A DNA stretch of 10,843 nt. It comes from Nanobdellota archaeon. Its GTDB lineage: Archaea > Nanobdellota > Nanobdellia > Pacearchaeales > GW2011-AR1. Positions 302-10,112 of this stretch are shown one piece after another; within the stretch, counting starts at the first letter, position 1; every line of letters begins with the position of its first letter. The DNA lies in the NCBI GenBank assembly GCA_018816205.1, contig JAHIWJ010000063.1:1-10843 (forward strand), read 5' to 3'. The position numbers were made by a program, and so were the translations under genes. The notes below the pieces were generated by a model, which saw only the letters and a list, made by a program, of their open reading frames with translations, was not told the DNA's origin and did not search any database.

Positions 302-3300
302 TTACGAAATCTTTAGTTTAATTACTGCTCTGGAGTACAGTGTCCATATGTTTCTAGGGTCCCTATCCAGAATCCTTGCTATTTCAACATTCTTCACCCC
401 CCTTTCCCTAAAGTAAATGACCACTGCTTCTAAAACACTCAACCGCCTGTCTCTGAACACACTAACAGGCACATAAATTGTATCAGCTCTCACACGCGTT
501 CTCTTTGCTTTCTTCTTTGCCGCATTATGATAATTAATCCAAACCGTCCTATCATCCCTGTTCAATACGCCAGCTATCTCACTATAACTGAATCCTTCAT
601 TCTCTCGAAGATACTTGCAAAGCGCCTCAGAAGGACTTACCTCTTGTCTGAACACATCAATCGGAATCTGCAACCCTTCTCTTGCCCTGCGCACCTCCTC
701 CAACAATTCTGATAAGTTAACCCCTTGTTCTCTCTGAAGTTTTTCATCCAGCAATGCAAGCCCATGAACATCCAGGCCTGGCTTCTGCAGCTTGCGTTTC
801 AGCTTTCCAATCAGGTCAGAACGCTTCTTTCTCTTCTTCCTCCTTCTTCCTCTGCCAACAACAAATGCCGCCAAGGCCATCTGAATAACCCATTCCGAAG
901 GCGTAGAATAAACAGCAGTTGGCAGTTCAGGCACATCCGGAATGCAATAATACAAAATTTCCTGACCAGTAGAGCCGTCATTCACCGAGTGATTGCCTGC
1001 AGGCAAAGATGCACCAGTGACGTTAATCAAAGCCTCATCAATCATCCAGTCCGCAACACTTGGAGCATTGCAAGCATCCGGCGGATCTCCACCCAAAGGG
1101 CTAGCAATACTCACCGTGAAATTCCCAACACCCAATGTATAAGCTCCTGACACAAGATTATATCCTTCAATACTCACGTTTGGAGCATCATAATTGCCTG
1201 TGTTATTAATTAAAGTAAAGGGGCCATAAACATTTGTGTCTGCACTATTTGCACTCCCAAAATCAAGATTGTTCGGTGATATAGCCATTGCCTGCAACAA
1301 ATTATAAGTAAATGTGTTTGTGTCGTTGGATGCACTGGCCCCAGAAAGGTCGTAAGCCTGAATCGAAACATTCCAGTCTCCTGCTTCATCAAAGTACCAC
1401 ATATTTATTGTGCATGAGAAGTTTTTTGAGGTGGCCGTGTCCTGCCCTAAATCTACGCAGGTCAAATTTTGTCGCACCGCCTCTCCGCTTCGCGTGAAGT
1501 TTGCTTTCACGCTTGAAACATTAATATCACCTGCTCCGTTTGCATCACTAACAGTTGCAGTGAATGTTATAGGTGAGATAGTATTCTCTATAGGATTTGT
1601 GTTTGCTATCGGCGAGACGAAGGGGAGGGCGGGGACAATATTGTCTTTTGTAACTGTCCTCTCCTCTGTCTGATTTTTATTTCCTGCCCGGTCAACAGTA
1701 TAACCTCTAAACACATGCGCACCGTCCCCAAGGTTTGTAAAGTTAGCAGAATACTGGTTTGTGGAGGCGTTGTACAAAGCAAGCACCTCTTGACTCGAGA
1801 GGGAGCGGTTAAACAACAACACATCGTCAATTTTTCCAACCATGTCACACCCAAAAAAGTTCATTTCAAAATCAAGATCTGTCTGAACATCTGAAGTGCC
1901 GTCAGAACCGATTTCAGCCCCGTCCACGTAAAACACCACGTCTGTCAGATTATAGACCGAGACTAGATGATGCCACCCGCTTGTAAGTTCTGAAAGAGTC
2001 ATTCCTGATTTTGTGACAGTAAAACCATCATCGTTCATCTCCCCGTAAGCTGAAAGCTCGTATGTCCCCGAACTTTCCGCAGTTCTAAAGAAGAAACTAT
2101 CAGAAGTTCCTGCATAGAAATAGCTGAGATAATCTGTTTGTCCGGTTTCCGGTGGACTATCCAGCTTTACCCACATTGATTGCGTAAACCCGCTAGTCGT
2201 AAGATTCAGGTTGTTGATTGTCGGCGCTTTTATGTAAGCAGAGATTCCATCAACGCTGAACCCCTTGCCAAAATAACCCGCATCAGTCTGCAATGCATCT
2301 CCAACATTGCTTCCATTCCTTGAGTAGAAAGATAAATCCGTCGGCTCTCCGGATGAATTTACATCGCCCATTGTGTAATACAAAAATAAGTCATAGTCAA
2401 AATCAACAAAGGTGTAGTGGTAATTTGTATCGCTGGAAGAAACATTAACATAAATTGAATTTTCTGTTTGGTTCGAGCTATTTGCAGGAGTAGGGCTAGT
2501 GAAGTTGATTGCTGGAATAATTGTGTCTACAGTTACCGTCCTCGTTTCCGTCTGGTTTTTGTTTCCGAAGTCATTAACTGCATAGCCAGTAAACGTATAA
2601 GTCCCTTCTGCCAAATCAGTAAAATTATGCAGATATTGAGCTGATGCATAGTATAAAGAATTGAGTTCTCCAAATGCTAATGTGCGATTGAAAACCAGGA
2701 CCTCATCAATTGTTCCATTGAAACCTGGACCGATTAGAAAATTTGTCCCTTCTGGCGCAGCAGGTATTACGCTTATATTAGAAGGAGATTCCTGCCCTCC
2801 GTCTAAATAAAAGATAGCTTGGGTTCCGTTGAATGAAACAGCAACATAAGTCCAGAGTGTAGTTGAAGAAACCACTAAACTTGAAGTTGTCCAGGAGTTA
2901 TCTCCCGATATAAACTTTAAGTGTCCTGATGCGTCAGCGATTCTAAACTCAAAGTTTCCCAGACCCGCGTTGTCTTGTTTTATTATTATCTGTGATGCAA
3001 TGGCCGTTGGTTTGACCCATGCAGACAGAGTTATGTCCTGTCCCTGAGCAAGTACTTCCCCAGTATCAATGTAATCACCAACACCATCAAAACTAAATGA
3101 CCTTCCAGACGCTCCAAGGATAGTCTGGGCAGCATTTCCTTGTTTACTTCCATTATTTGAATAGGGAGATAAATCAGTTGGGTCTCCTGAACTATTTGTG
3201 TCGTCCATGCGCATCCACAACAAAACATCTCTGTTAAAGTCTGTAAAAACATAATGTTCTCCATTATCTGAGGAAGAAATGTTTACAAAGATTGAATTTG

Positions 3301-6300
3301 CGTTTTGTGAGGAGGCATCTGGAGGAGTTGGGCCCGCGAAGTCTACTGCAGGGGCGGCCACGTTAACCTCGAAGTAATTTATTGATGAAGTGCCGTAATT
3401 GTTTGCAGTGTCGTTGCAGATAAAGGTTATATTGTGCAATGCTTCAGTTAGTCCTGTTTTTGTATAATTTGCTCCCGTGTTGGATGCGTTTAAAGTCATT
3501 GTTACATTGGCTGCGTCATCAAGAGAGAAACCGCACCAAGAAGCAGCTTTATTTATAGATATTTCAAAATCTACAGTTGTTGCACTATATTTTTCACCAT
3601 CCTGAGGAGAAATAACTGTTATTACCGGAATGGTTGCATCAATGGTCACGGTTCTTTGTTCTGTCTGATTCTTATATCCCTGTTTGTCTACTGCATAGCC
3701 TGTGAATGTATGGCTCCCTTCGGCTAATGAAGTAAAATTATTGAAATATTGATTCACGGCTGTGTTATATAAGGCAAGGACTTCCTGGTCTGACAGGGCA
3801 CGATTAAAAACCAAGACCTCATCAATTGTTCCGTTGAAATACTGATGGTTTATTGGGGGGTCTTTTCCGATTGTTTGGATATATCGTGAGTTAGTTATTT
3901 CTACTAAAGGCCGAGAGTCAACTTTTGTTCCGTTTAGATAGAGGGTTATGTCTGTTGTGTTCATTACTCCGACTGCGTGCACCCATGTATTGAATGGTGT
4001 GGCATAATATGCAACGGAATTCACAGTAGTCCCGTATTGTTTAAACTGAAGCAGATTTGTCGTTGGAGCAATCCAAAGACCATATCCAAAATAAGTTCCT
4101 GGTGAACTAAAAGTCATATATGAAGAACAAAATATGCAGGTGCCATAAGAAGCAGTGACTTCATTTAGATTATACCAAGCCGAGATTGTAATATTGCCTG
4201 TGTTGTTTATTTGTCGTTTCAAAGAAATGTAATCTTCGCTGCCATCCATGTATGTTCCATTGCCAAAATATCCGCTTGATGAATTTATTATTGCGTTTAC
4301 TCTTGTTCCGTTATTTGAATAACTTGACAAGTCTGTCGGGTCTCCGGTTGCATTAACATCATCCATACGCATCCAAAGAACTAAGTCATGGTCGAAATCT
4401 GCAAAAGTGTAATGCTGGCTTGCATCTGAGGAAGAAATGTTTACTGGGATTGAATTTGCGCTTTGTGAGGAGGCGTTGCCGGGAGTTGGGGAGGTGAAGT
4501 TTATGGCAGGGGGGGTTGTATCTGGTGGTGCACCGATTGTAATTGTCCTCTCCTCAGTCTGATTTTTGTATCCTAATTTATCTACTGCATAGCCGGTGAA
4601 AGTGTGGCTTCCATCTGCAAGAGCTGTGAAATTATTGAAATATTGGTTTGCTGTTGTATTGTATAAAGCAAGAATCTCTTGGTCTGATAAAGGACGATTG
4701 AAAATCATAACTTCGTCAACTGTGCCGTTGAAACTCTGTGCAATTGTTCTTGACGCACCAATTAACTGTACCACTTCGCCCCCGGGCCATGTTAATGTAT
4801 TTGTTCCGCCAGTAAATGTTATATCAGTTCCGTTTTTGTAAACGAGCATTTCATCTGTCTCGTTTACTTTAGCACAAACAAACTGCCATGTGTCAGCCAC
4901 TATAACCCCAGTTGCAGAAGTTGAAGAAACATCAACTGCTGTGTTTCCCATCCAGAGTGCTAATGCCCCTGTTGTTTCTATTCTTAAATTATACTGCTGA
5001 TTTCTCGTAGTAATAACATCCTTGCCCCTTTTTACAATGCCCATAACAGCGCCTATTTTTTTTGGATAAATCCAAGAGCAAATAGTAAAATTATGCGCGA
5101 GATTAAGCGATGAAGGCAGTGATAAGTCTATATAATCTCCACTGCCGTCCATATAAGTTCCATTCCCCCAATACCCGCTTGTTGAGTCTATTATAGTAGT
5201 CCCCATTTTTGTTCCATTATTTGAATAACTTGATATGTCTGTTGGGTCTCCGCTTGAATTTGTGTCGTCCATTCTGAGCCATAAAACCAAGTCGTGGTCG
5301 AAATCTGTGAAAGCGTAATGGCCCCCGTTGCTGTCGCTTGAAGAAATATTTACAAAGATTGAATTTGCGCTTTGTGAAGAGCCATTTTCCGGAGTTGGAG
5401 GCGTAACAAAGCTAATGTCTGGCGGCGTTGTCGGGTCAATGATGTGGTCGAACTGCACGTCTCCATTTAGGATGAATAAATCAAATGTATCCTGACTTCC
5501 TTGCAGATTTGTTAAATAAATTTTGTTGTACTGGTTGTCATCTAAAGAAGTAAACTCTGCAATTAGTTCAGTTTCCCCTTCTTCGTAAACCTCAATCTTT
5601 GGCGTGCCTGAAATTGTTCTAGGATAAAGAGTTATATCTCTGTCAGAAGTTAGATTTCGTCTAAATGTAACACGCACGTAATGAGTGTCTGGAATTGTTT
5701 CTGACCAGTTTCCATCTAATGCTTTAACTTCTTCGTAAATGTCGCTGACGAACTCTTTGTTTTCATCAAGATGTTCCGCCTTGCTGATTTCAATAATTAA
5801 ATCAAAAGTCTGATTGCTTAAATGCGGAACGACCCATTCAACATAATCAACAAAGCCATCGTTGTCTAAATCAAATTCTTCAAAATCAAAAGCAATTTTT
5901 ACTTTCTCTTCGATAGTAATTTGCTTTTTTGTTTCCTCTCTTTTGTTTAATTCTGATACTGCAAAGCCTGTTAAAAAGGAACCTGTTATTTCTGCTGAGG
6001 AATTTGTTTCTTCTGCCGGAATTGTTTCTTCTTGTGTTTGTTCTTCTTCGGGCAATTCTTTTTCCTTTGTTTTTTCAATTTTCTCTTCTTTTATTTTTTC
6101 TGTTGCGTTGACATATCCGAAAGAAACAGCATCTTCGTAATCAGCATACCAATAGAACTTTATTTCGTTAGAACCCATTGGCACTTTATTTTCAATTGTG
6201 GTGTAAGCCAAAACATCGGTGTAATTTAATCCATCAGGACCAGAGACGATTATCCTCTTGCCGTTGTTTATATTTTGTTCGGCCGAGGTAGGTGCCTGCG

Positions 6301-8512
6301 TGTAGTATTCAACTGCAATCTCTTTTTCATTAGTCTGCTCAAAGATTTTTTCAACATTAATAATCTTCTTGTCGCCTTTTTCTATTATCCCATCCCCTAA
6401 ATCCTCCTCACTGATTACACTTCCAGTTATGCCGAATCTTCCAAACCACTCCCAAATCCTGGTGATGATTCCCTTTTTTCCGTTCAAGTCATTTACAACA
6501 TTTCCTGTAATTCCACCAGAAACAATTTTTTCTCTGTTCGCTTCGTTCACGGCACTCTCATATTCCTCAGCTTCTGTAAACGCCACACTGGCCTCTTCTC
6601 CTGTCTTAATTGAAATGTCCTCTGATTCCCCAGGAATTTCCAAAGTCAAATTCTCAATATTTGTCACATTCTCTAAATCAATTTTCTTTATCCACTTCAC
6701 AGGCCGATTAATTATTGCCTTGTACTGCTTCGTCGTAACGTTCAAACTTTCATTCCGAGTTGCGTTAAACAACTGCTCTAATTCTGTGATGTTCTCAGAA
6801 TCCAAAACAGTTATGTTAAACAAGTTGCTTCCGTAGCTCCCCAGTTCATTAACGGCAACAATCCTGCTCTCTCTAACGCCTGTAAAGTTTTCATTCGGTT
6901 GCATCCGTATCTTGCTCTCAAAAACAGTGGTTGAAATATCGTCCGTCTGCTTAAGATAATACTCGCTAGCACCAGTAAAATACTCTTTAACATCCAGGTC
7001 ATAATACCAATTCTTCTCAATGATAATTGTCGGAATCTCCTTTATCAACGCTGGCGGCCCAGCCAGAGTAACATTCTCTTCTTCAGTGACTTCCTTTTCA
7101 ACCGCAAGTTCATAAGTCACCTCATCCAGCTCAAACTCTGCGCCGTCAGCTTCAATTCTTAAAGTATAAGAAGTTTTGTTTAACCCTCTGCCTTTTAAAT
7201 CACATGACTCCTTGCAGTAATCCTCAAACATTATTTTCTTAACCGCCCCCTCACCAGCAACCTCAACATCTTCTTGACCTGTTGCATTATCAGTGCTTTG
7301 CTCAGTTTCATTTTTATCTTCTTGCTCAGTTTCGTTTATCTGGGTTTCTTCATTACCCCCTCCGGTGCCAGATTCGTTTCCTGCTTCATTATCTCTGCTC
7401 TCGCCCTCAGCGCTCTCATTCGGATGCTCTTCACTTGCTCCTTGTTCAGGCTGTTCTTGGTTGCTCGCGGCGCTCTGCTCTTCACCACTACTATCGCCGC
7501 CCTCGCCGCCGCTCACTGCTTCACTTCCCTCATCAGAAGAACTATCTGCCGAATCCTCGCTCGCATCAGAACTCTCAGCAGAATCTTCAGAAATGGAATC
7601 GTCCCCTTCAGTTGCAAATCCAGTGATTACACTCCCAGTAATAGTGGGCTTGCCATCCCCTTCCAAATCGTCAGAATCTAAAATCAAAATATCATCCAAA
7701 TAAACTTTTACCGTTCCTTCTCCCCGCACCGCCCCGCTAAGTTTAACCCAATTCAAATCGCCAGAGTAGGGCAGGTCTAAATCCTGTATAGCACTTTCAT
7801 TGACAACTAAATCAAAAGTTTTCGTATGCACTTCATTAACAGTTTGAACAGTCAAACCAGTAAACTCTGATCTAAGAACAACCCCAAATAACCCATAAAG
7901 CGCCAATCCCAAAATCAAAACCAGAGGAATCAACTTAACAAGATTGCTCTTTGGTTTCGGTTTACCAGAATAACTCGAAAGAGATTGCTTGGCTTTACCG
8001 ATGTAGTCCTCATAATAATCGACAATTTTCTGCGGCTCGTTTTTCCCATAAAGCTTCTTAATCTCCGCCTGGTATTGCTCATAGCTAATCTCTCGCGCAT
8101 TATACTTCCCAACTAAATCCTGAACGCTCCCAATAACTCTTTGCTTGTAATCCTCTGCCTTCGAAATCTTCTTAGACAGATCTTTCCTAAGTTCTTCCTT
8201 TCCTAGCGTACTAACCTTCTTCTTGCCAAGAGATTTCTGCGCTTTCATAATCTCCGAGCCGTACCAATCCAACTGCGCCCTATGCGACCTAATCTGGATA
8301 TTAAAGTAGTTTATCCACTGTTCAGGACTTTTCTCCTTGAAAATCCGTTTGTATTCATTCTTGTATTCCTCAAATCCAATCTCGCCAATGTTGTATCTTG
8401 CAGTTAGTTTCTGAATCGCAACCCTGACTGCTTCCTTCTGAGATTCACACAGTTCAATCTTCTCTTGTAGCTCTCGCTTCTTTTTTTCTAGCTCTCTCAA
8501 ATCAAATGGCAT
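302..8512 (-). CDS. Giant LamG/Ig-repeat surface protein with predicted cytoplasmic tandem HTH tail
   Basis: A 2736-residue protein, preceded by Shine-Dalgarno GGAGGTGA three bases before the ATG. Order: 1-190 charged helical region with a 59-residue duplication (26-84, 123-181); 191-213 membrane segment; 215-300 beta-rich with FTG and ITG motifs; 301-420 acidic Ser/Glu/Asn linker; 424-470 module with C433 and C437; about 484-570 cadherin-like; about 595-1027 a region familiar from DPANN surface proteins, with EF-hand-like loop D881-x-D-x-D-G-x-x-D-x-x-E892, ending FDHIIDP; 1030-2290 four LamG modules with an Ig-like spacer at 1626-1718; 2291-2403 and about 2405-2530 beta-sandwiches; 2541-2553 short hydrophobic segment, then GRGRRRKKRKKR; 2616-2733 two HTH domains. 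About 80 N-x-S/T sequons lie in 238-2509, none in 1-190 and one after 2540. This supports an inside-outside-inside topology. Likely role: adhesion or ligand sensing coupled to transcription, which is inference. Ligand and targets are unknown. Confidence 0.85.
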   Translation of the reverse strand: MPFDLRELEKKKRELQEKIELCESQKEAVRVAIQKLTARYNIGEIGFEEYKNEYKRIFKEKSPEQWINYFNIQIRSHRAQLDWYGSEIMKAQKSLGKKKVSTLGKEELRKDLSKKISKAEDYKQRVIGSVQDLVGKYNAREISYEQYQAEIKKLYGKNEPQKIVDYYEDYIGKAKQSLSSYSGKPKPKSNLVKLIPLVLILGLALYGLFGVVLRSEFTGLTVQTVNEVHTKTFDLVVNESAIQDLDLPYSGDLNWVKLSGAVRGEGTVKVYLDDILILDSDDLEGDGKPTITGSVITGFATEGDDSISEDSAESSDASEDSADSSSDEGSEAVSGGEGGDSSGEEQSAASNQEQPEQGASEEHPNESAEGESRDNEAGNESGTGGGNEETQINETEQEDKNETEQSTDNATGQEDVEVAGEGAVKKIMFEDYCKESCDLKGRGLNKTSYTLRIEADGAEFELDEVTYELAVEKEVTEEENVTLAGPPALIKEIPTIIIEKNWYYDLDVKEYFTGASEYYLKQTDDISTTVFESKIRMQPNENFTGVRESRIVAVNELGSYGSNLFNITVLDSENITELEQLFNATRNESLNVTTKQYKAIINRPVKWIKKIDLENVTNIENLTLEIPGESEDISIKTGEEASVAFTEAEEYESAVNEANREKIVSGGITGNVVNDLNGKKGIITRIWEWFGRFGITGSVISEEDLGDGIIEKGDKKIINVEKIFEQTNEKEIAVEYYTQAPTSAEQNINNGKRIIVSGPDGLNYTDVLAYTTIENKVPMGSNEIKFYWYADYEDAVSFGYVNATEKIKEEKIEKTKEKELPEEEQTQEETIPAEETNSSAEITGSFLTGFAVSELNKREETKKQITIEEKVKIAFDFEEFDLDNDGFVDYVEWVVPHLSNQTFDLIIEISKAEHLDENKEFVSDIYEEVKALDGNWSETIPDTHYVRVTFRRNLTSDRDITLYPRTISGTPKIEVYEEGETELIAEFTSLDDNQYNKIYLTNLQGSQDTFDLFILNGDVQFDHIIDPTTPPDISFVTPPTPENGSSQSANSIFVNISSSDSNGGHYAFTDFDHDLVLWLRMDDTNSSGDPTDISSYSNNGTKMGTTIIDSTSGYWGNGTYMDGSGDYIDLSLPSSLNLAHNFTICSWIYPKKIGAVMGIVKRGKDVITTRNQQYNLRIETTGALALWMGNTAVDVSSTSATGVIVADTWQFVCAKVNETDEMLVYKNGTDITFTGGTNTLTWPGGEVVQLIGASRTIAQSFNGTVDEVMIFNRPLSDQEILALYNTTANQYFNNFTALADGSHTFTGYAVDKLGYKNQTEERTITIGAPPDTTPPAINFTSPTPGNASSQSANSIPVNISSSDASQHYTFADFDHDLVLWMRMDDVNATGDPTDLSSYSNNGTRVNAIINSSSGYFGNGTYMDGSEDYISLKRQINNTGNITISAWYNLNEVTASYGTCIFCSSYMTFSSPGTYFGYGLWIAPTTNLLQFKQYGTTVNSVAYYATPFNTWVHAVGVMNTTDITLYLNGTKVDSRPLVEITNSRYIQTIGKDPPINHQYFNGTIDEVLVFNRALSDQEVLALYNTAVNQYFNNFTSLAEGSHTFTGYAVDKQGYKNQTEQRTVTIDATIPVITVISPQDGEKYSATTVDFEISINKAASWCGFSLDDAANVTMTLNASNTGANYTKTGLTEALHNITFICNDTANNYGTSSINYFEVNVAAPAVDFAGPTPPDASSQNANSIFVNISSSDNGEHYVFTDFNRDVLLWMRMDDTNSSGDPTDLSPYSNNGSKQGNAAQTILGASGRSFSFDGVGDYIDTGEVLAQGQDITLSAWVKPTAIASQIIIKQDNAGLGNFEFRIADASGHLKFISGDNSWTTSSLVVSSTTLWTYVAVSFNGTQAIFYLDGGQESPSNISVIPAAPEGTNFLIGPGFNGTIDEVLVFNRTLAFGELNSLYYASAQYLHNFTDLAEGTYTFTGYAVNDFGNKNQTETRTVTVDTIIPAINFTSPTPANSSNQTENSIYVNVSSSDTNYHYTFVDFDYDLFLYYTMGDVNSSGEPTDLSFYSRNGSNVGDALQTDAGYFGKGFSVDGISAYIKAPTINNLNLTTSGFTQSMWVKLDSPPETGQTDYLSYFYAGTSDSFFFRTAESSGTYELSAYGEMNDDGFTVTKSGMTLSELTSGWHHLVSVYNLTDVVFYVDGAEIGSDGTSDVQTDLDFEMNFFGCDMVGKIDDVLLFNRSLSSQEVLALYNASTNQYSANFTNLGDGAHVFRGYTVDRAGNKNQTEERTVTKDNIVPALPFVSPIANTNPIENTISPITFTATVSDANGAGDINVSSVKANFTRSGEAVRQNLTCVDLGQDTATSKNFSCTINMWYFDEAGDWNVSIQAYDLSGASASNDTNTFTYNLLQAMAISPNNLDFGSANSADTNVYGPFTLINNTGNYDAPNVSIEGYNLVSGAYTLGVGNFTVSIASPLGGDPPDACNAPSVADWMIDEALINVTGASLPAGNHSVNDGSTGQEILYYCIPDVPELPTAVYSTPSEWVIQMALAAFVVGRGRRRKKRKKRSDLIGKLKRKLQKPGLDVHGLALLDEKLQREQGVNLSELLEEVRRAREGLQIPIDVFRQEVSPSEALCKYLRENEGFSYSEIAGVLNRDDRTVWINYHNAAKKKAKRTRVRADTIYVPVSVFRDRRLSVLEAVVIYFRERGVKNVEIARILDRDPRNIWTLYSRAVIKLKIS
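314..667 (-). other. Tandem helix-turn-helix domains at the C-terminus of the giant protein
   Basis: Residues 2616-2668 and 2681-2733 align with one another. Each begins (I/V)-P-(I/V)-x-V-F-R, then S-x-x-E-A, then a recognition-type core: YSEIAGVLNRDDRTVWINY in the first copy and NVEIARILDRDPRNIWTLY in the second. The pattern E-I-A-x-x-L-x-R-(x)n-W-x-x-Y-x-x-A resembles sigma-70 region 4 and related HTH folds. The preceding segment is a strongly basic cluster (2554-2564) and a charged helical linker (2565-2613), consistent with a membrane-proximal cytoplasmic location. I judge DNA binding likely from the pattern. RNA or protein binding cannot be excluded. Confidence 0.7.
1643..2521 (-). repeat. 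LamG-in-Ig module 4 (residues 1998-2290)
   Basis: This is the most divergent of the four modules. The opening PAINFTSPTPANSSNQTENS and the close (NQTEERTVTKD) match the others, but the entry motif LW-x-RMDD has become LYYTMGD and the SYSNNGT element is FYSRNGS. The LamG core keeps F-S-V-D-G (2085-2089), W-V-K (2114-2116), G-W-H-H-L (2179-2183) and K-I-D-D-V-L-L-F-N-R-S-L (2227-2238). LamG domains are concanavalin-like beta-sandwiches that bind glycans or proteins; a calcium site cannot be judged by eye. Confidence 0.75.
2525..3358 (-). repeat. LamG-in-Ig module 3 (residues 1719-1996)
   Basis: The module follows the uninterrupted Ig-like spacer (1626-1718, bases 3359-3637). It has the shared opening (SSQNANSIFVNISSSD), the entry motif LLWMRMDDTNSSGDPTDLS, LamG core landmarks S-F-D-G-x-G-D-Y-I (1807-1815), L-S-A-W-V-K-P (1829-1835) and F-N-G-T-I-D-E-V-L-V-F-N-R (1931-1943), then the shared close ending NQTETRTVTVD. 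The exit helix differs from modules 1, 2 and 4: LAFGELNSLYYASAQY replaces LSDQEVLALYN. Confidence 0.8.
3638..4516 (-). repeat. LamG-in-Ig module 2 (residues 1333-1625)
   Basis: The frame of this module is nearly identical to module 1 (ASSQSANSIPVNISSSD; DFDHDLVLWMRMDD; SYSNNGT; FNGTIDEVLVFNRALSDQE; the NQTE-containing close). The LamG core is clearly different and contains a local Cys pair (C1459, C1462). The nucleotide sequence of the frame is also close to module 1, for example the stretch ATTTGAATAACTTGA of the plus strand, which is present in both. This suggests a fairly recent duplication followed by divergence of the core. Confidence 0.8.
4535..5425 (-). repeat. LamG-in-Ig module 1 (residues 1030-1326)
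   Basis: This is the first module after the FDHIIDP end of the N-terminal surface region. The order is Ig first half (1031-1074), LamG insert (about 1075-1285) and Ig second half (about 1289-1326). LamG landmarks are Y-M-D-G-S-G-D-Y-I-D-L (1120-1130), F-T-I-C-S-W-I-Y-P (1142-1150), W-Q-F-V-C-A-K-V (1209-1216) and N-G-T-V-D-E-V-M-I-F-N-R (1262-1273). C1145 and C1213 could form a disulfide across the sandwich; this is inference. Confidence 0.8.
7253..7612 (-). other. Acidic Ser/Glu/Asn low-complexity linker of the giant protein (residues 301-420)
   Basis: About 120 residues composed largely of Ser, Glu, Asp, Gly, Asn and Gln, with six sequons (N365, N379, N393, N401, N409 and nearby). It follows the ITGSVITGFA motif directly. 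It is probably an extended, glycosylated stalk that holds the folded domains away from the membrane; the role is inferred from composition. Confidence 0.65.
7874..7942 (-). other. N-terminal transmembrane segment of the giant protein (residues 191-213)
   Basis: A continuous hydrophobic run (LVKLIPLVLILGLALYGLFG and three more residues) follows a basic stretch (GKPKPKSN) and is followed by sequon-bearing beta-rich sequence. By the positive-inside rule the preceding ~190 residues lie in the cytoplasm and the remainder outside. This is a signal anchor, not a cleaved signal peptide, because of the long N-terminal domain. Confidence 0.8.
7970..8437 (-). repeat. Duplicated 59-residue helical unit in the cytoplasmic N-terminus
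   Basis: Residues 26-84 (bases 8261-8437) and 123-181 (bases 7970-8146) align without gaps at an offset of 97. Matching positions include K26/K123, V29/V126, Q34/Q131, L36/L133, Y40-N41/Y137-N138, E44-I45/E141-I142, Y50/Y147, E53/E150, K55/K152, P63/P160, Y69/Y166, I74/I171, L81/L178 and Y84/Y181. The pattern is helix, short G-x-I turn, helix, helix. The core Y-N-x-x-E-I-x-x-E-x-Y has some likeness to SHOCT-type oligomerisation motifs, but that is only a suggestion. Confidence 0.7.
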
Positions 8513-8515
8513 CGC

Positions 8516-8523
8516 TCACCTCC
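8516..8523 (-). promoter_or_regulatory. Shine-Dalgarno of the giant gene
   Basis: GGAGGTGA, complementary to the usual archaeal 16S 3' end, sits three bases before the ATG (six bases from the GGAGG core). It fixes the start at 8512. It directly abuts the T-tract of the hairpin upstream, so folding of that hairpin could affect both termination and ribosome access. Confidence 0.85.
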
Positions 8524-8548
8524 AAAAAGAAAAACGGCTGGCCCACAA

Positions 8549-8562
8549 CTAGGGTGTGTGTT
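8549..8562. repeat. Partial third copy of the CTAGGGTGTGTG repeat
   Basis: The plus strand reads CTAGGGTGTGTGTT, identical to 14 consecutive bases of the repeat at 8568-8586 and in the same orientation. It lies in the loop of the terminator-like hairpin. Confidence 0.8.
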
Positions 8563-8567
8563 TTTAC

Positions 8568-8586
8568 CCTAGGGTGTGTGTTGTGT
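8568..8586. repeat. 19-bp perfect inverted repeat, left arm
   Basis: CCTAGGGTGTGTGTTGTGT on the plus strand is the exact reverse complement of 8810-8828. It overlaps a 10-base palindrome, ACCCTAGGGT (8566-8575). Confidence 0.9.
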
Positions 8587-8603
8587 GGTGGGCACAGCCG
8601 CTT

Positions 8604-8723
8604 AAAAAAATATGAAAAAGAAAAAGAGGACTGCCACCGAGGGCGTGCCCAAATACTCGCTACAGCTTTATGAGATATGCAGCTCGCATAAGGGGGCGTG
8701 TTGTTTTGGGCAGACAGGTCCTC
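8604..8723 (-). ncRNA. Candidate structured RNA or leader domain followed by T-tracts
   Basis: On the minus strand GAGGAC (8723-8718) pairs with GTCCTC (8631-8626), closing a ~98-base domain. Inside, TGCCCAAA (8712-8705) pairs perfectly with TTTGGGCA (8653-8646). Further in, CTTATGCGAG (8692-8683) can pair with CTCATAAAG (8674-8666) apart from small bulges. The closing stem is followed by TTTTTCTTTTT (8625-8615) and a run of seven T (8610-8604). Structure plus T-tract suggests either a free small RNA or the first domain of a long mRNA leader. I looked for SRP RNA, RNase P, tRNA and box C/D or H/ACA signatures and found none convincing. Confidence 0.5.
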
Positions 8724-8809
8724 ACAAAAGAGTTTAACAGAACTTTTTTCACTGATAACAATGCCAGAACTAACTAATTCTTCTACTATTGTGACTACTA
8801 ATTCAGTTA

Positions 8810-8828
8810 ACACAACACACACCCTAGG
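8810..8828. repeat. 19-bp perfect inverted repeat, right arm
   Basis: ACACAACACACACCCTAGG on the plus strand. The minus-strand copy would lie within the first few bases of the transcript predicted from the TATA box at 8852-8860, so in RNA it could pair with 8568-8586. No target-site duplication is obvious outside the two arms. Confidence 0.9.
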
Positions 8829-8851
8829 ATACTTATTTTGTATGTCTTTTT

Positions 8852-8860
8852 CCTTTTAAA
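8852..8860 (-). promoter_or_regulatory. TATA-like box driving the leader and giant gene
   Basis: The minus strand reads GATTTAAAAGGA. A start about 25 bases downstream falls near 8831, three bases before the right repeat arm, giving a leader of roughly 320 bases before the ATG at 8512. The flanks are A/T-rich, so other boxes (for example AAATATTTAGG a little upstream) cannot be excluded. Confidence 0.45.
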
Positions 8861-8900
8861 TCTATCTATAACCTAAATATTTTTACTTAATTTGTATGAT

Positions 8901-8924
8901 AAAAATTAAACAAAAAAATAAAAA
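8901..8924 (-). terminator. T-tract terminator of the aRF1 gene
   Basis: Starting seven bases after the aRF1 stop, the minus strand has TTTTT, then TTTTTTT, then TTTAATTTTT, without a strong stem. This is the usual form of archaeal intrinsic terminators. It separates aRF1 from the promoter at 8852-8860. Confidence 0.55.
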
Positions 8925-8930
8925 TCCAAC

Positions 8931-10037
8931 TTAATCCAGACTAAATCTCAAAATTGCCCCAACACCTTCAGTCAAATTCCAAAACTGCTCCCCATCTGTA
9001 TGGTCTGCTCCAATCAAAACGACACTCGCTCCGATATTCTCTGCCATCTGCTCAAATTCCTTTTGCTTGTCCCTGTTAAATTTCTTAGAAATCAACAAAA
9101 TTTCAACTGCCCCTCGCTCAAGCGCAAGTCTGACTTCCGGCTCTCTATAGGCCGCCTTCTTTCTCTCCTTCCCCAAAGTGTTGAAAAACTTTTCAAGCAC
9201 TTTCTTCTCCTTAATCAGTTCCTGTTCCTGCATTTCTTCATCCGAAGACTCAACCAACAACTCAAGCCCATGTTCATCAACATAACCCAAATCCTTTATC
9301 GCAATAATTTTTTCCTTCAACTTCGTCACAAGTTGCCCCTCATCAAGAAAATCTTCTTTTGTCGGAATCGGCCCGCCAATCAAAATGCCCTTCAGCTTAG
9401 GCATATCAAAAAACAAGTTTTTCAACTCTTCAGCAACTCGCCTGAAAAATTCTTTAGCCAGTCCTTCAGTAATTCTGTGAAATCTCTGCGAAGACTGTCC
9501 TCCCGCCCTAACTTTCCCCGGAACTCCTGAAGTCAATTTCTGCAAAACTTTAATCTGGCTTCCCTCAAGCAGCCCAATCGTCGCCTGCTGCCTGTCAATA
9601 ACCATTAGCCCATAAACCTCTTCGATGGCAATCATCTCCTTCAACGGCTCAATGATAAACTCCTGATCGCACCTGTAAATCTTAACGTTCAACGGTCTCG
9701 GCGGTTCATAAATCCAAATTTGAATATCAGAAACTCCTTCTTTATCAGAAATATTCCCACAATAAAAAGCTAGACCATTTTCCGGCGTCTGCTTAATATT
9801 TTTCATCTCTCGAATTATCATATCAAGCGCAGAAATAACATTTTTCCTCGTAGCTGCAGACTTGATATTCGAAGCCGTCGACTTCTCACCCTCAATCTGC
9901 CTCTGAATCAGGTTAATATTCGCCCCTGCCGGAATCAAAACCGTCACCAACTCCGTATGTCTCCCGCGGATACTTCCAAGTAATTCAATCAAATCTTCAA
10001 GCTTCTGTTTCTCCTTAGGATCAATGATGTGTGTCAT
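8931..10037 (-). CDS. prf1: Peptide chain release factor aRF1
   Basis: A class I release factor that recognises stop codons in the ribosomal A site and triggers hydrolysis of peptidyl-tRNA. With the ATG at 10037 it has 368 residues, close to the archaeal aRF1 norm. Visible motifs: domain 1 TASNIKS (NIKS at 57-60) and Y-R-C-D-Q-E-F (121-127), which read the stop codon; domain 2 R-A-G-G-Q-S-S-Q-R-F (GGQ at 179-181), the catalytic loop; domain 3 (about 280-368), which in the family contacts the GTPase partner aEF1A. The reading frame stays open upstream to a GTG at 10091, but those 18 codons look non-native, match no family sequence I know, and overlap a leader hairpin; MTHIIDPKEK is a typical aRF1 start. 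There is no clear Shine-Dalgarno before this ATG. The gene appears monocistronic. Confidence 0.95.
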   Translation of the reverse strand: MTHIIDPKEKQKLEDLIELLGSIRGRHTELVTVLIPAGANINLIQRQIEGEKSTASNIKSAATRKNVISALDMIIREMKNIKQTPENGLAFYCGNISDKEGVSDIQIWIYEPPRPLNVKIYRCDQEFIIEPLKEMIAIEEVYGLMVIDRQQATIGLLEGSQIKVLQKLTSGVPGKVRAGGQSSQRFHRITEGLAKEFFRRVAEELKNLFFDMPKLKGILIGGPIPTKEDFLDEGQLVTKLKEKIIAIKDLGYVDEHGLELLVESSDEEMQEQELIKEKKVLEKFFNTLGKERKKAAYREPEVRLALERGAVEILLISKKFNRDKQKEFEQMAENIGASVVLIGADHTDGEQFWNLTEGVGAILRFSLD

Positions 10038-10086
10038 TTTTATTGTTAAAGCACTGCACGGCGAGCAAAGCGAGCCCAGCAAAATC

Positions 10087-10112
10087 GACACCAGCCGCGA
10101 GAACAGGTGTCC
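10087..10112 (-). promoter_or_regulatory. Hairpin at the predicted 5' end of the aRF1 mRNA
   Basis: On the minus strand GACACC (10111-10106) pairs with GGTGTC (10092-10087) across a 13-base loop. The predicted transcript start is near 10113, so the stem would cap the mRNA. The following bases contain GCTCGC and GCTCGCC as near-repeats. The leader is markedly richer in G and C than its surroundings. Confidence 0.4.

Follow-up and report, generated by a model that had tools for sequence, protein, structure and literature searches.

The window, by which we mean the whole stretch of 10,843 nucleotides that was analysed, contains an ORF on the minus strand (302..8512) that encodes a giant surface protein of 2736 amino acids with a fused twin-HTH tail. 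Pfam matches over the cut-off in this ORF comprised four Laminin_G_3 stretches (270.9 bits against a cut-off of 27.6), three Big_13 stretches and two Sigma70_r4_2 stretches. The parts of the chain given here all lie on the minus strand. The N-terminal part, residues 1-193 (7934..8512), has a charge of +13 and no sequons, and precedes a membrane anchor at residues 194-212 (7877..7933; hydropathy 2.56). This anchor was called by hydropathy only and gives the giant at least one predicted membrane segment. The best-scoring of the four LamG stretches by Pfam spans residues 1423-1578 (3779..4246). The last ectodomain module, at about residues 2300-2546 (875..1615), has a beta-sandwich-like model and is common to a neighbouring short protein. 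In its AlphaFold2 model, which has a mean pLDDT of 70, the W stretch forms a strand with low confidence. Searched by fold, the module matched generic Ig-like beta-sandwiches only. A short hydrophobic stretch and a basic run follow at residues 2541-2563 (824..892), before HTH unit 1 at about residues 2615-2666 (515..670) and HTH unit 2 at about residues 2680-2734 (311..475).

These parts had been proposed in the first-pass annotation and held up here. The anchor is clear, the ectodomain contains four LamG stretches over the cut-off and is sequon-rich by count, the hydrophobic stretch and then the basic run are present before the tail, and the two sigma-region-4-like units at the chain end form a conserved pair. 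Together, anchor and sequons suggest that the chain is exported. The tail was found once in the genome to which the window belongs (1.08 Mb in 229 contigs, 72% complete).

Upstream of the giant lies a gene with eRF1 domains (8931-10091), whose product would, by the names of its domains, be an archaeal release factor. Downstream, a secreted protein starts on the minus strand after 46 bases and is cut by the window end (1-255). Several short motifs (ITGSVITGFA, FTGLTV, ITGNVV and ITGRAS) recur in the giant and in this neighbour. Motifs of the ITGSVITGFA type directly follow membrane segments and border on acidic linkers, occur in relatives as well, and are possibly processing or sorting motifs.

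Fold, conservation and topology of the tail

Single HTH units overlay known HTH structures within about 1 Å over 46-49 residues. They match in structure searches, unlike the whole tail, for which Foldseek gave no match at an E-value of 0.001 or better. Pfam and NCBIfam scans of the giant listed region-4-type matches and no sigma region 2 family, and all NCBIfam models scored far below their own cut-offs for the tail. The giant thus contains a predicted DNA-binding domain, based on Sigma70_r4_2 matches over the cut-off and on the fold. Homologues retain the tail, which is kept in 11 other giant proteins besides that of the window. An alignment of ten tails, with 40-69% identity to the window, has 21 invariant columns; it represents 10 of the 12 giant rows, as P0005 and P0009 were left out, and the window tail takes the place of the duplicate P0003. 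The arrangement of a giant with a twin-HTH tail is real and conserved, and the tail is probably a DNA-binding regulator. The tails of L035 (G241), P0005, P0015 and P0016 have four HTH units in place of two.

The first-pass annotation had also placed the tail inside the cell. The charge pattern fits a C-terminus on the inside, as the N-terminal part and the tail are positive and the ectodomain is negative in all 12 giants. The membrane-spanning step is the part of that claim that fared less well. Hydropathy scores of the C-terminal hydrophobic stretch are low, and the W of the last strand is separated from the basic run by 8-17 residues in 24 of the 28 fused proteins that could be measured (of 32 tried) and by 21-27 residues in the other four. 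The stretch would therefore be a weak membrane-spanning step, and the tail may or may not work while tethered. Sequons in the ectodomain exceed shuffles in 10 of the 12 giants (the exceptions being P0010 and P0012). With 0-4 sequons the tail has no fewer than its own shuffles, and sequons therefore reveal little about the side on which it lies.

Two routes for freeing the tail were rejected. An internal translation start is not supported by any start codon conserved after the basic run, and L010 and L011 have no start codon at all in the 45 codons examined. Archaeosortase-type processing was rejected as the exosortase family was over the cut-off in only one of 15 tail genomes.

Separate and fused members of the family

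Searching with the tail alignment identified 426 proteins at an E-value of 0.001 or better, the best 120 of which were 119-349 amino acids long. Among 38 proteins read, many were about 150-210 amino acids long with two units, and others represented ends of fused chains. Genome contigs scanned for the tail yielded 29 loci, with named relatives from Candidatus Pacearchaeota and other Nanobdellota. Ten of the 11 Pacearchaeota loci were fused and one was a 45-residue fragment; one further fused locus came from Nanoarchaeota, while all 11 Woesearchaeota loci were separate. Across the phylum, 157 of 371 genomes had an HTH match, and the loci read were the best-scoring among the matches listed, ranked by E-value. 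The family thus appears to be a regulator that is a separate small protein in related Nanobdellota and is fused to the C-terminus of the giant in Pacearchaeota.

We then compared the separate HTH genes with 279 control genes, which were other genes in the same loci. After use of 102 of 119 loci and removal of seven duplicates there were 73 distinct separate HTH genes, and the next same-strand gene was measurable for 70. The gap to this next gene was negative for 60 of the 70 (controls: 44/279) and between -20 and -1 for 49 (controls: 37/279), a class meant to limit the effect of gene calls at the first ATG of the frame, which may lengthen genes. A hydrophobic stretch within the first 200 residues was present in 64/70 of the next proteins versus 124/279 among controls, and a length of 800 amino acids or more was reached in 23/70 versus 13/279. 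Spacing is not always close; in L096, L101 and L108, for example, the gap amounts to 709-2065. A further 17 loci, in which no HTH ORF was called from an ATG, were kept outside these statistics and checked with the longest ORF starting at -20 to +60, a choice that favours overlap: 11 overlapped the next gene, two showed none, three were N-masked and one was a fragment.

Of the 63 proteins encoded beside separate HTH genes, 16 carry a recognisable version of the N-terminal part of the fused giants. The scan also detected this part in 16 of 432 other ORFs, and for several of these (L058, L090, L095, L102, L104, L116 and L118) it had missed the HTH gene of the locus. The separate HTH homologues themselves have no anchor. 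Apparent giants with an N-terminal HTH in L018, L087 and L088 were excluded because the long frames after the HTH are runs of N. In the surface-gene clusters of L013, L022, L023, L028 and L030 we also observed a conserved small protein starting like MEQETLFTASKWDILK, which is perhaps another regulator.

Some loci are arranged in a way that resembles an intermediate between the two forms. In L021 and L073 (G281), an ORF ending in the last module, with its 5' end outside the sequence, is followed by a separate HTH gene and then by a short protein with the same module. A last-module protein is encoded beside the giant in 21 of 24 fused loci, the remaining three being truncated at this place. In L002, this short protein (10827-11780) is 38% identical to the end of the giant over 285 residues. 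In relatives the short neighbour is about 310 amino acids long, and these short proteins terminate at the WTI strand or close to it. The separate overlapping gene of related lineages shows a plausible path to one chain, along which the operator would have been kept. In a tree of 109 rows and 124 columns, fused tails form one large group of 19 rows (support 97) and another of 17 rows (support 95), with a few scattered rows besides. Six changes between fused and separate are needed on this tree and well-supported branches force only one, so fusion may have taken place once or more than once. A separate observation concerns L065 (G074), where a 183-residue HTH frame (345696-346196, minus) directly precedes a giant with a fused tail, so that both forms occur in one operon.

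An operator-like motif in the promoters

The promoters of fused and separate forms have an operator-like motif in common, which at its best reads TACTTACATAnTAAGTA. In this form (TACTTACATAATAAGTA) the motif is an inverted repeat, TACTTA-N5-TAAGTA, that would suit two HTH units. Repeats in the fused promoters pointed to ACATAnTAAGTA, which with one mismatch is found in 12 of the 15 promoters of this discovery set (15 of 17 loci, leaving out L142 for a wrong ORF and L008 for an uncertain start). With the same tolerance it occurs in 25 of 69 separate-HTH promoters, of 300 bases each, and in 11 of 240 controls (p = 1e-10). Allowing up to two mismatches, TACWTACWTANTAAGTA occurs in 29/69 versus 7/240 (p = 1.5e-15) and is absent from the remaining 40. 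Control promoters are richer in GC (0.344 against 0.299), a difference for which shuffles allow, and ten Markov shuffles gave at most two matches to TACWTACWTANTAAGTA. With a weight matrix derived from the fused promoters alone, 42 of 65 separate promoters scored at least 12 bits, compared with 9 of 150 control promoters sampled from a set of 425.

Exact copies of TACWTACATANTAAGTA are rare and concentrated at HTH genes. In the 371 genomes searched there are 21 copies in 16 genomes, against none for the backward control, and all 16 belong to the 157 genomes with an HTH match; the chance of such an overlap at random is about one in a million, by arithmetic that ignores kinship. Seventeen copies are on the strand of a listed HTH match or, in G307, of the fused giant; by coordinates they coincide with the match or the start of the giant, or precede it by up to about 310 bases. 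Two more precede short HTH frames, of 122 residues in G046 and 73 residues in G004, so that 19 of the 21 are at or just upstream of HTH genes. Of the other two, the copy in G025 is inside an HTH coding sequence and the copy in G034 had no HTH within the 4 kb read. The looser pattern ACAYANWAAGTA exceeded its backward control in only one of 15 genomes; only the position of the motif and its longer form are informative.

In the window itself, two degenerate copies flank the box TTTAAAA (8854..8860, minus), which we take to be a TATA-like box. Copy 1, ACAAATTAAGTA (8884..8895, minus), has one mismatch to ACATANTAAGTA and is upstream of the box, and copy 2, ACAAAATAAGTA (8830..8841, minus), also has one mismatch and is between the box and the leader. 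The promoter of the giant thus contains two one-mismatch copies of a motif that is enriched across the family. Exact copies of TACWTACATANTAAGTA or ACAYANWAAGTA were not found at this promoter, and the two exact ACAYANWAAGTA copies in the genome are both away from it. Among promoters that contain a copy, a strict layout with one copy on each side of the TATA box was found in 7 of 12 fused and 7 of 27 separate ones. Five fused promoters (L007, L010, L137, L140 and L141) have TTTATAA beginning at -31 together with a copy that runs up to the start codon. In archaeal promoters, the polymerase sits at the start, downstream of the TATA box. As these copies occupy that position, repression would be the favoured sign of regulation. 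We also note that in L156 (1500-1720; G004) near-perfect copies of TACTTACATAGTAAGTA surround a TATA box in a dense cluster, immediately ahead of an HTH frame.

The long leader before the ATG of the giant (8513..8829, minus) contains two copies of CACACACCCTAG and one inverse copy. Such a leader precedes the giant genes of three genomes of the genus (that of the window, G100 and G213); each has two or three copies of CACACACCCTAG and, near the start, a single inverse copy. Totals of CACACACCCTAG in these genomes are 3, 3 and 4, respectively, all at the leader, compared to none in ten other genomes. The leader RNA has a better predicted fold than 100 shuffled versions (z of -3.31 for the window and -6.32 for L129), and an Rfam search of 8400-9000 gave no match up to an E-value of 0.1. 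Because the array is present in only 3 of the 13 genomes searched, we take the leader to be an addition within one genus. It could provide RNA-level control added within the genus; RNA attenuation as the main control was set aside. Hairpin-like surroundings followed by T-runs were seen at the array in the window, L003 and L129, and a leader ORF of 106 amino acids (8502-8822) overlaps the ATG of the giant.

Probable autoregulation, its rivals and known systems

Computation supports the fold, the conservation and the gene order, as well as the enrichment and co-occurrence of the motif. Taken together, we consider it probable that the giant combines an autoregulator, probably a repressor, with the surface protein under its control, and the presumed contact sensor is better explained in this way. 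The tail would bind TACTTA-N5-TAAGTA and its degenerate forms with one HTH unit per half-site. Operator copies flank its own TATA box, and because one of them sits where transcription should start, binding would shut the promoter and result in autorepression of the giant. Both fusion and the overlapping gene pair would supply regulator and surface protein in a ratio of about one to one. From patterns in the genomes we infer DNA binding, the assignment of units to half-sites, repression over activation, the cytoplasmic location, and action in a tethered or cleaved state. The tail's likely target is its own promoter, and therefore the giant may control its own amount. The first-pass annotation had linked surface contact, perhaps with a host cell, to gene expression; a regulatory target is indeed suggested, but it would be the giant's own promoter, and sensing of a host is unsupported. 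Quite possibly, though we propose it tentatively, the giant is a self-counting surface protein whose built-in repressor tail shuts the promoter in proportion to the giants made or inserted.

Several other explanations account for part of these data. The first-pass annotation had favoured a membrane receptor-regulator, in which LamG binds a host or neighbour and a signal crosses the membrane to the tethered HTH units and changes expression. The clear N-terminal anchor, the weak second hydrophobic stretch, the basic run and the DNA-binding fold all fit such a receptor, as does the charge pattern of the 12 giants. However, LamG (PF13385) is listed for only 9 of these 12 and is thus not the constant part, which speaks against host-contact sensing through LamG, and the weak stretch is short in most fused proteins (24/28). 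In other lineages the HTH is a separate gene product beside surface genes, so there is no one-chain transmembrane signal there, and we regard a receptor as unlikely. A processed polyprotein, with the tail cut near the hydrophobic and basic run on export to give one free soluble autoregulator per giant, is possible if somewhat doubtful. The hydrophobic stretch is weak and variable, the short relative ends at that strand, and elsewhere the related regulator occurs as a free protein. All 15 tail genomes contain Site-2-protease-like M50 and rhomboid families, but so do all 14 control genomes, so these intramembrane proteases are uninformative; exosortase exceeds its cut-off in a single tail genome and a cleavage site was not found in the giants.

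Two explanations without transcription control seem far less plausible. An anchor and a DNA-binding fold on one chain could tether the chromosome or a gene to the membrane, but the motif lies around the TATA boxes of its own operon instead of being scattered, and the separate homologues have no anchor, making a tether quite improbable. Alternatively, stop-codon loss may have joined an HTH gene to a surface gene and left a functionless passenger. The gene order of L021 and L073 resembles the ancestor expected for such a loss, yet the invariant columns of the tail, the two supported groups of fused tails and the retention of the motif in most fused promoters leave a passenger hardly credible.

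If autoregulation is correct, a surface protein regulates itself via its own tail, and a large group of small archaea, in which gene regulation is little known, has a regulator family with its operator and target operons. Among open-licence full texts, titles and the starts of abstracts, we found no paper on giants with HTH tails, the separate twin-HTH family or its motif. Known one-component transmembrane transcription regulators include ToxR, CadC and ArnR, and in those of the ToxR/CadC type the DNA-binding domain is N-terminal, before the membrane segment. The giant is similar in having a predicted membrane segment and a DNA-binding domain in one chain. It differs in its length of 2736 amino acids, in that the rest of the chain is a surface protein, in the C-terminal position of its HTH units after the ectodomain (residues 2615-2734), and in that its likely target is its own gene, with no sign of a sensed signal. 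An account of transmembrane transcription regulators describes them as common in bacteria and archaea, and mentions neither DPANN nor Nanoarchaeota (PMC10269533). The tail shares the HTH fold with sigma-70 region 4, LuxR-type HTH proteins and the archaeal Tfx-type regulator 8hno, whereas it has two units per chain and, by Pfam, no other sigma region. A survey of LuxR-like proteins in archaea names one from Woesearchaeota (PMC5413776). With the LamG (Laminin_G_3) surface proteins of DPANN archaea, the giant has in common its anchor, LamG and Ig-like modules and many sequons, to which it adds a putative DNA-binding tail. A known kind of autogenous regulator is encoded first in the operon under its control. 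The separate twin-HTH members are alike in preceding and overlapping a surface gene, with the motif in their own promoter, whereas in Pacearchaeota the regulator would be part of the very structural protein that it regulates.
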